Part shown: piece by piece, positions 27,564 through 33,796 of the stretch
Layout: each line of letters starts with the position of its first letter
Position numbering within the stretch: the stretch's first letter is position 1
The notes under the pieces: model-generated
Told to the model about the DNA's origin: nothing
The model's input: the letters and a program-made list of their open reading frames with translations, nothing else
Databases searched by the model: none
NCBI RefSeq assembly: GCF_000169455.1
Contig: NZ_AAYC01000008.1
Coordinates: 1 to 64,000 of the forward strand
Direction: 5' to 3'
Source of the DNA: Roseobacter sp. SK209-2-6
GTDB taxonomy: Bacteria > Pseudomonadota > Alphaproteobacteria > Rhodobacterales > Rhodobacteraceae
Length of the DNA stretch: 64,000 nucleotides
Translations under genes and position numbers: made by a program

Positions 27564-27735
27564 GCTTTAGCCCAGACACAAAACCTAGCGGGCACGTTGA
27601 CACAAAAAACCTAATGTAAACCGAATCTGGGGAAAGCGCGTCAGAAACAGGTCTGACCCGGTCCATCTGGAGCACAGCAAAAAGCACCTGATCCAAAGCC
27701 AAGGGCCGTCGCAAAATCAATTCTAGCAAGGATGA

Positions 27736-27838
27736 AGTGAGAGGTTGGACATCGACCCAAGCGGGGCTCGTTGTGGCTGCTTCCTTCCGGATCTGACCAG
27801 GTTGGCGAGGCGCCTGCCCGCGCCAACCTCTCAGGGAT
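27736..27838 (-). ncRNA. ffs: Signal recognition particle RNA (4.5S, small bacterial type)
   Basis: The minus strand contains the universal SRP core GGTCAGATCCGGAAGGAAGC with AGCC after it. The 5' TGAGAGGTTGG pairs with CCAACCTCTCA at the 3' end, closing a single long hairpin of about 100 bases. The RNA binds Ffh and targets membrane proteins. The ends are estimated from the closing helix. A frame running through it (27490-27876) is not a gene. Confidence 0.93.
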
Positions 27839-31698: not shown

Positions 31699-31774
31699 CG
31701 TTTCGCTCTTCGTATGTGAACAGACGCAAATCCGATTGACGACTCACCCTTTCCAGCGATAGCGCTGGAGAGGA

Positions 31775-31975
31775 TGGTTCCTGCGAGACACAAACTGTGT
31801 GTCCAGGATGAAAAGGGAACGCGGTGCGGCTGGTACTGATCAGCCAATTCCGCGACTGCCCCCGCAACTGTAAGCGGTGAGCGGACCGGGTGAACCACTG
31901 GCATGGAGTTTTGCGCTCCAGGTTGGGAAGGACCGGTTTCGCAGCGACCCGCAAGTCAGGAGACCTGCCATCATA
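31775..31975 (+). promoter_or_regulatory. Cobalamin (B12) riboswitch
   Basis: The conserved elements appear in order: GAAAAGGGAA near 31810, CCGCGACTGCCCCCGCAACTG near 31850, CCACTGG near 31895, GGGAAGGACCGG near 31925, and the B12 box AGTCAGGAGACCTGCC at 31954-31969. It lies upstream of the small gene at 32092 and should lower its expression when adenosylcobalamin is present. Confidence 0.94.
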
Positions 31976-32083
31976 TGAAAACTCGAACCCGGACGGGGTG
32001 TCCGGACAGGGTCTGATGGCAGCGTCTTCACTCGCCTTTCATCCGAACTCTTGTCCCATGGGCCTCCGTACCACGCGCGGAGG
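31965..32083 (+). promoter_or_regulatory. Expression platform of the B12 riboswitch
   Basis: CTGCCATCA (31965-31973), the 3' strand of the B12 box, is perfectly complementary to TGATGGCAG (32014-32022), giving a fold that competes with ligand binding. A second hairpin, CCTCCG (32063-32068) with CGGAGG (32078-32083), covers the ribosome binding site of the gene at 32092, so control is probably at translation. Confidence 0.6.
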
Positions 32084-32091
32084 GCGCAAAT

Positions 32092-32496
32092 ATGATGTGG
32101 ACAGACCAAACGCATTTCTATGCGGCAACGGATTGCAAATACCTGGGCAGGCCATGCCCTGCGGCACAAAGGATGATCGCCAAGCTGGCAGAGGCGATCA
32201 CCAAGGCCAAACCGCTAACCCAGGAGGATTTCGAGATCACCGGCACCTCAGCGCTGGACGGGTGCCCCCGCAATTGCCCGGCGCAGTTCGCCGCCAGTCA
32301 CGACCGGATCCGGCTTTATTGTGGTGTAGGAGAAGAGGCGCCGCGTGCAGGGCTTGACCAGTTCGCCGATGCCATCCTCAGCCGCGATGGTAAGGGTTTT
32401 GCGGCCGATGCGCTAAAAACTCGCCCCTGCGCCCTGATGGAGGCGCTGCCAAAAACCGCAGAGGCCCGGCAGGCAGAACAAATGATGGCCTTGTAA
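32092..32496 (+). CDS. Cysteine-rich ferredoxin-like protein (DUF1636-like) under B12 riboswitch control
   Basis: 134 residues with TDCKYLGRPCPAAQ at the N-terminus, LDGCPRNCPAQFA in the middle and RLYCGV after it. The spacing resembles thioredoxin-fold 2Fe-2S ferredoxins and DUF1636 proteins, which occur near cobalamin genes; the match is by eye and remote. GGAGGG lies 7 bases before the ATG, inside a hairpin. Being the only gene behind the riboswitch, it likely works in cobalamin or cobalt metabolism, for example as an electron carrier for corrinoid reduction or a metal-binding protein. No signal peptide. Confidence 0.7.
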   Translation: MMWTDQTHFYAATDCKYLGRPCPAAQRMIAKLAEAITKAKPLTQEDFEITGTSALDGCPRNCPAQFAASHDRIRLYCGVGEEAPRAGLDQFADAILSRDGKGFAADALKTRPCALMEALPKTAEARQAEQMMAL

Positions 32497-32638
32497 CCTG
32501 TTGCCCGAGCGGGCTGGCGCCATTGCCGCAGAGACCCCTGATCTAACTGACGGGAATGTGTTCCGCAGCAGGCTGGCCCGCTTTTGAAATTGGTTTTTGG
32601 CAGGTCCGGTGTCCTGATTTTGAACAAGAGGATTGCCA

Positions 32639-33006
32639 ATGACCAAGACCTTATTGTCGGTCTGCGGCTTTAGCGGCCGAACAGCCACTGTCCACATCAG
32701 AGATCAGCGATTTGCTGACCGGGAAAACCATTGAAGGGCTGCATTTCGAAAGCCACACCCGTCAGTATTTCTCGGCGTCCGGGCTGACGCTCTGGATCAA
32801 GCAGGGGGGACGCTGCCCCGTCGGAAGCGCGCTACAAAATCGAAGATGGCAAATACTGTTCCAGCTGGTCCGGCTTGTGGAACACACCGGAATGGGGCTG
32901 CTTCTCCATTCTGAAGGATACAGAACAGGGCCTGTACTATTTCCACAGCGAAAACTTCCGGGGCCCCTTTATCATCGGCAATGGCTTCGACCTCAGCTTT
33001 GACTAG
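32639..33006 (+). pseudogene. Secreted-protein-like gene broken by two frameshifts
   Basis: An ATG with an AGAGGA site before it starts MTKTLLSV, but the continuation (ALAAEQPLSTSEISDLLTG and on to SGLTLWIKQG) is in a second frame, and the rest (APSEARYKIEDGKYCSSWSG to NGFDLSFD, then stop) in a third. The second shift lies at a run of six G near 32803. Joined, the pieces give a protein of about 120 residues with a possible short signal peptide and WNTPEWGCF/YYFHSENFRG blocks. I do not recognise the family. Either it is decayed or the sequence has two indel errors. Confidence 0.65.
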
Positions 33007-33042
33007 CCACGGGATCTACAAACTCTCTCCTAAAAGAACCGC

Positions 33043-33579
33043 TCAAGACTGGGCGGCATGTGCTCCGGCATAGGCCCATTCCATCTGCGACTGGGTTTCA
33101 ACCGCACAGGGTCTGACCGCACGAAGCCGAGCCAGAGCCTTGGCCGGTGGTTCGCCGCTTTCAACCATCAGCCGCAACAGCACCATGCCCGAGCGGCCAC
33201 AGCCGCCCTTGCAGTGCACCAGTACCCGGCCGCCGCCACGCAGGGCCTGCAGTGCCAGGGCGCTTACCTCTTGCCAGGGTTCGCACATCTCGTGATCAGG
33301 AGCGGAAAAGTCAGCCAATGGCAAATGAGACCAGCGGCAGCCCATATTCTGCAACCTAAGGCCAAGATCCGCAGCCCCCACCGCTGCATGTTCGGCATCT
33401 GTTGTCATGGAAATAACCAGGCCAGGCTCCCATTCATGAATGTGGTTCAGATCCCCCAGCAAATCGCCACCTGCACCTGGCAGGGGACAAAGGGCTAAGA
33501 TCCCCTCACCAACGGATAGAGCATAGAGTGTCAGCCCATTTGGCGCCTCGAGATTTGCTTCCGAACTCACATCCTGCAT
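33043..33579 (-). CDS. Protein tyrosine/dual-specificity phosphatase-like protein
   Basis: 178 residues with the catalytic Cys-x5-Arg loop HCKGGCGRSG (about residue 121 of the shorter form) and an upstream Asp candidate (PLADFSAPDHE) that would be the general acid. No signal peptide. I start at MQDVSSEANL, 6 bases after a GGGGAG; a start at 33651 would add 24 residues. Substrate unknown: protein phosphotyrosine or another phosphate ester. It stands alone, convergent with the broken gene. Confidence 0.82.
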   Translation of the reverse strand: MQDVSSEANLEAPNGLTLYALSVGEGILALCPLPGAGGDLLGDLNHIHEWEPGLVISMTTDAEHAAVGAADLGLRLQNMGCRWSHLPLADFSAPDHEMCEPWQEVSALALQALRGGGRVLVHCKGGCGRSGMVLLRLMVESGEPPAKALARLRAVRPCAVETQSQMEWAYAGAHAAQS

Positions 33580-33796
33580 CTCAATCTCCCCACCCCAAGA
33601 GAGGGCACCGCATAAAATCACCAAAACACTGCGCGTCCCAGGATTGGACAATACCGCTCTTTGACCGCAGCCCAGGAACTTTGCCCTTTTCCACCAGTTC
33701 GGGTCAACAGCGGTAGACCTTGGCCTCCCTGTTGCGTACCTTGCCCTGACCCGATACCGCCACTTCGAATCCGGCTCAAACCGCTAAGAGAACTAT

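Follow-up and report, generated by a model that had tools for sequence, protein, structure and literature searches.

A B12 riboswitch devoted to a single small cysteine-rich protein of a branch related to DUF1636

We found that a complete cobalamin riboswitch in the window (the whole 64,000-nucleotide stretch of DNA analysed here) precedes a single gene, encoding a cysteine-rich protein of 134 amino acids, and that riboswitch and protein have stayed together across the bacterial family, which marks the protein as part of B12 metabolism. That the protein belongs to B12 metabolism and is controlled by the riboswitch is, in our judgement, very probable; the sequences show the riboswitch, the single gene, the purifying selection, the recurrence of the unit across genera, the homology to DUF1636 and the location of deep-branching members in B12 loci. 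Most likely, the protein is a small helper in corrinoid uptake, salvage or activation that binds a metal or an iron-sulfur cluster. An uncharacterised protein family is thus tied to vitamin B12 through regulation that is conserved over many genera, and the case carries a warning for annotation, as a gene that adjoins dnaX would, without its riboswitch, never have been linked to B12.

The aptamer (positions 31,758 to 31,986, plus strand) matched RF00174 with 117.9 bits (cmscan, E = 6.2e-29), clearing the gathering score of 31.5 bits across the full model (positions 1–189 of 189). A complete B12 riboswitch, as claimed in the original prediction, was therefore borne out, its earlier start of 31,775 lying 17 nt inside the aptamer. 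The gene itself (32,092 to 32,496, plus strand, ATG start) begins after a spacing of 105 nt and is the only one 3′ of the riboswitch on that strand, which bears out the claim that the riboswitch is devoted to one small protein. The next intact gene (33,043 to 33,651) has the opposite orientation and encodes a dual-specificity-phosphatase-like protein; because this opposed gene and dnaX are what lies beyond 32,496, the riboswitch serves one gene. A NUDIX NAD pyrophosphatase gene and a polyketide-cyclase-like gene lie on the 5′ side, and the phosphatase-like gene and dnaX (named from sequence) on the 3′ side. When compared with eight Leisingera-type orthologues (87–92% identical), the protein showed purifying selection with a dN/dS of 0.04–0.10, so that 32,092–32,496 is really coding. 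Two further features of the window were seen: an apparently broken small gene at 32,639–33,010 on the plus strand, spread over three reading frames (MTKTLLSVCGFSG.. / ..TIEGLHFESHTRQYFSASGLTLWIKQGG / DAAPSEARYKIEDGKYCSSWSGLWNTPEWGC..), and a bacterial small SRP RNA at 27,735–27,833 on the minus strand (RF00169, 53.7 bits), which in several further genomes likewise adjoins the clade gene.

The leader between aptamer and gene offers a plausible two-state switch. The closing stem of the aptamer pairs GATGGT (31,773–31,778) with GCCATC (31,967–31,972), and a hairpin CCGGAC(GGGGT)GTCCGG (31,989–32,005) follows directly 3′ of the aptamer; resembling hairpins follow most other B12 aptamers of the same genome. 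Further downstream, a candidate competitor of the closing stem, TGATGGCAG (32,014–32,022), is complementary to CTGCCATCA at the 3′ end of the aptamer (31,965–31,973) and could thus compete with P1: the 3′ strand of the closing stem can pair either with GATGGT or, more extensively, with TGATGGCAG, over 9 bp, and equally good pairing arose in none of 200 shuffles. Competing pairing of this type extends over 8–11 bp in the Leisingera-type orthologues and was also found at the btu riboswitch of the same genome; it is mostly missing or shorter in other genera. A sequestering hairpin is predicted, CCTCCGT(ACCACGC)GCGGAGG (32,063–32,083; 7 bp between 32,063–32,069 and 32,077–32,083), with the Shine-Dalgarno (SD) sequence in its 3′ arm, and in the ensemble fold of the whole leader the SD sequence was only 9% unpaired, held by the upstream CCTCCGT. 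Folded alone, this hairpin was no more stable than shuffled sequence (z = 0.41). The expression platform that had been called readable is hence readable in part: an SD hairpin and a competing 9-bp stem are predicted, but the hairpin is unremarkable against shuffles and the direction of switching cannot be read from the sequence. B12 riboswitches usually turn expression off, and by that usual behaviour we infer that B12 would turn this gene off as well. A sigma-70 promoter scan returned no match.

The SD sequence is embedded in a 13-nt box, GCGCGGAGGGCGC (32,075–32,087, 4 nt 5′ of the ATG), which was identical in all inspected riboswitch-bearing members of the protein's clade, though the proteins diverge to 28% identity, and which occurs in this genome as one copy with an ATG. 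Uniqueness to the clade protein was rejected, as the box occurs elsewhere and is also found after B12 riboswitches that precede another small protein. Two further candidate interactions were set aside. The aptamer core GCCCCCGC is complementary to the SD box (−18.8 kcal/mol, a value that 15 of 1000 shuffles reached), but direct pairing between the two is not claimed because ensemble folding preferred local partners in the window and mixed partners elsewhere. L5–L13 kissing (GGUGCGG with CCGUACC) amounted to complementarity on visual inspection of the window and Leisingera sequences and was weak in other genera.

Among the 37 clade members checked, which come from many genera, 36 had RF00174 directly upstream on the same strand (the window; L009–L024 and L026; eight Leisingera-type loci; L095, L099, L101–L103, L105, L107 and L108; L141; and L159); L029 is an antisense chance match. 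In the sole exception, G051, riboswitch and SD box are absent at the gene and the protein sits on a long branch in the tree; profile searches of this genome found no CbiC/CobH, CobO or PF07845, and its only riboswitch precedes what we read as a TonB-dependent receptor gene, followed by ABC uptake genes. Judged from these searches and the tree, the G051 protein is evolving fast, and riboswitch, SD box and corrin-ring synthesis (CbiC/CobH) have been lost. The clade was monophyletic in a maximum-likelihood tree with 32 clade rows (support 100/99). Within it, the window protein nests inside Leisingera (97/94), with 92% identity to L041 and 44–57% to the copies of its own genus, and the flanking genes match the own genus best, with DnaX reaching ∼96% identity over the matched parts as compared to ∼80% with Leisingera. 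Along the window, the riboswitch-gene unit (31,733–32,500) is Leisingera-like and its flanks are own-genus-like. An exchange of the unit between genera is likely from these comparisons, with its direction a matter of interpretation.

The original prediction described the protein as DUF1636-like, which holds as distant homology and fails at the Pfam cut-off. The window protein had no match to PF07845 at E ≤ 1 (Pfam gathering score, 31.6 bits), and two clade members scored 13.3 and 14.5 bits, below that cut-off. No curated family matched it in Pfam (where only DGC appeared, at E = 0.11), NCBIfam, PHROGs or, by sequence, the PDB, and viral contigs contained no relatives. Profile-profile alignment (hhalign), however, joined it to btu-type DUF1636 over residues 9–99 (98.3%, E = 1.8e-14) and less strongly to cob-type DUF1636 (71.6%, E = 3.5e-5); on profile comparison, it and DUF1636 are divergent sisters, homologous at the superfamily level. 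The cob subtype was also separate in the tree (100/99). C15, C22, C58, C62 and P112 are invariant in the clade and C77 is nearly so, so that "cysteine-rich" was a fair description. These cysteines depart from the DUF1636 pattern C-x2-C ... C-x3-C(-x3-C): the clade has C15-x6-C22 ... C58-x3-C62, is without the first cysteine of C-x2-C and of C-x3-C-x3-C in the alignment, and keeps C22, which it has in common with some btu-type proteins only. By these alignments, the clade forms a new branch within the DUF1636 superfamily, with a rewired set of cysteines.

A published prediction makes DUF1636 a [2Fe-2S] ferredoxin of thioredoxin-like type that retains three of the four ligands (PMC4520260). Because the cysteine positions of the clade differ from those of DUF1636, this prediction need not transfer to it. 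The likeness to the thioredoxin-like [2Fe-2S] ferredoxin of Aquifex (1F37/1M2A) consists of two cysteine pairs, the second being C-x3-C, but the first pair of the window protein is C-x6-C and there was no significant sequence or fold match; for DUF1636 itself, a weak sequence hint to 1f37 was obtained (E = 0.16). AlphaFold2, run on an alignment of twelve sequences, gave a low-confidence model of the window protein (pLDDT 54.7) with the order beta-alpha-beta-beta-beta-alpha, and Foldseek with this model found no match at E ≤ 0.001. A solved DUF1636 structure exists in 9jn8 (molecule named ORF378; match to the cob-type, E = 7.6e-49), and our literature search found nothing on ORF378/9JN8 as a DUF1636 protein.

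The host genome, of Rhodobacteraceae type (4.55 Mb in 29 contigs), has seven B12 riboswitches, three of which lead DUF1636-type genes: the window gene and two true DUF1636 genes. One of the latter heads the operon DUF1636-cobW-cobN-cobG, with cobO divergent beside it, and the other heads DUF1636-ABC ATPase-SBP-FecCD. A third riboswitch-led operon consists of DUF4198 and a CbiMLQO-like cobalt importer (CbiMLQO named by eye), and the further targets are an oligopeptide/nickel-type ABC system, BluB and a GbcAB-like oxygenase. The ABC system, of SBP_bac_5 type (L078:9875–11431, minus strand; G000:C27, riboswitch 275,695–275,906, minus strand), is a candidate cobalt or corrinoid importer. The Rieske oxygenase and reductase (L077:6068–8394; G000:C27, riboswitch 114,499–114,698, minus strand) had GbcA and GbcB as their best NCBIfam matches, below cut-off, and may possibly carry out B12-independent betaine demethylation switched on at low B12. 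Three paralogous roles, in synthesis, in uptake and standing alone, are thus separated in one genome. The btu-type (PF07845, heading SBP-FecCD ABC operons) resembles the window clade in its homology and its B12 riboswitch, and several members share the SD core CGCGGAGGGCG; the clade is nonetheless separate, without the first cysteine of CTSC and of CMAGCDRPC and without the C-terminal DGW...RPGKL region, and its gene stands alone whereas the btu-type gene leads a transporter operon. The cob-type (before cobW-cobN; homologue 9JN8) likewise shares B12-riboswitch control and distant homology, but differs in cysteine set and operon, at ∼20% identity.

In the same bacterial family, a riboswitch lay directly upstream of cob-type DUF1636 in 19 of 20 loci (in L059 it is further upstream) and upstream of btu-type DUF1636 in all 15 loci scanned. 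The unit is less isolated than had been thought, as the whole superfamily here is B12-controlled, and its link to B12 is stronger than the original prediction could know. A B12 role had been called new for this protein; our literature search indeed found no paper with both DUF1636 and cobalamin, but cob operons that are annotated as such contain true DUF1636 genes, and in this family a B12 riboswitch almost always precedes these genes. Known cobalamin riboswitch regulons have the same aptamer class and a translational-type leader as in the window, and comprise biosynthesis, B12 transport, cobalt transport and isozymes (PMC3766115), yet the single target of the window fits none of the four. On plasmids of Trichormus and Gloeocapsopsis (L134 and L139), DUF1636 genes occur without a B12 riboswitch, beside COG0523-type GTP-binding proteins and additional copies of thrS, hisI, folE, hemB or zinc transporter genes, a setting like that of a zinc-shortage regulon.

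Most clade members, the window's included, adjoin dnaX and not B12 genes, but the deepest branch of the clade, formed by G062 and G160 (99/98 within the clade), is located in B12 loci. In G062 the order is riboswitch-gene-X-cobC, in which the clade gene overlaps X and cobC scores above the TIGR01140 cut-off; gene X looks like BluE but had no profile match, hence its neutral label. In G160 the order is riboswitch-gene-riboswitch-SBP-FecCD-ATPase. The two riboswitches of this locus (L123:5916–6815; G160:C5) are in tandem, ∼500 bp apart, the first preceding the clade gene and the second the SBP-FecCD-ATPase operon. The idea that orthologues would never be found near cobalamin genes is contradicted by the cobC operon of G062 and by the riboswitch-led FecCD-type ABC operon of G160. 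In G222, where no CbiC/CobH and no CobO were found, the clade gene is intact and the only two B12 riboswitches precede it and an ABC uptake operon; this combination speaks for uptake or salvage rather than for cobalt chelation. The clade loci, as read from their gene content, favour uptake, salvage or activation over cobalt insertion.

From these observations we propose that binding of AdoCbl would lock the leader in its SD-hidden form, so that the protein would be made when B12 is scarce; that it would fold thioredoxin-like as other DUF1636 proteins do, four cysteines holding a [2Fe-2S] cluster or a metal; and that it would serve in the uptake, salvage or activation of corrinoids, its likeliest role being that of a small redox partner which helps to reduce the cobalt of incoming or newly made corrinoid before adenosylation. 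As a whole chain, a B12-riboswitch-controlled, DUF1636-related redox partner in these processes is a tentative reading to which we give somewhat less than an even chance. It is possible, though we lean against it, that the clade is a dedicated stand-alone factor for corrinoid salvage or activation with a rewired cysteine site, and that three riboswitch-controlled paralogues (de novo synthesis, uptake and free-standing) serve an unnamed B12 step, such as the reduction of imported corrinoid before adenosylation. To our knowledge, the natural reductant and the metal partners in the aerobic synthesis and salvage of cobalamin are poorly characterised, and a small B12-controlled cysteine protein is for this reason a concrete candidate. 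CobR-like reductases may be non-specific (PMC8123684).

The main rival to a redox partner is metal (cobalt) handling, in which the cysteines of a protein made at low B12 would bind Co(II) or another metal and pass it on, in the manner of a partner of a CobW/COG0523 GTPase. Such a role would suit the same-genome DUF1636 paralogue directly before cobW and cobN, the cysteine sets that differ among subfamilies, and the cyanobacterial-plasmid DUF1636 genes, whose neighbours (GTP-binding proteins, thrS, hisI, folE, hemB and a zinc transporter) fit it better than electron transfer. We still regard it as unlikely for the window protein, as the clade is tied to cobC and FecCD-type uptake and not to cobW/cobN, and G222 retains the gene without CbiC/CobH. 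Known riboswitch targets include, as a class, isozymes of B12-dependent enzymes (PMC3766115), and this genome has a GbcAB-like Rieske oxygenase/reductase pair controlled by a B12 riboswitch. With these precedents, the protein might stand outside B12 handling and act as a substitute during B12 shortage by supporting a B12-independent route, for example as redox partner of a betaine monooxygenase-like enzyme. This is improbable given the deep clade members with cobC and an uptake ABC operon, and the oxygenase has its own reductase.

The contrast between the invariant 13-nt SD box and proteins that fall to 28% identity could suggest a role at the RNA level, as a B12-responsive leader or a small regulator that, for example, binds its own SD box. 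Because an unrelated small protein has the identical box after its B12 riboswitches, the box is part of the expression platform, and strong purifying selection on the clade protein also argues against this role, to which we assign little credence. That the gene is a decaying relic without function in this genome is highly improbable: G051 shows that loss occurs, and a broken gene lies just 3′ in the window, but dN/dS is 0.04–0.10, the frame is intact and all four cysteines are kept. The small proteins that share the box GCGCGGAGGGCGC after B12 riboswitches form a second family (L146, L152, L154, L158, L161 and L168) of 88–103 amino acids with an Arg/Gly-rich tail (e.g., PRRRGGA..RR) and no Pfam match. 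In L154 and L158, the gene that follows resembles metH; its product depends on B12, and such a target would be unexpected under an off switch.
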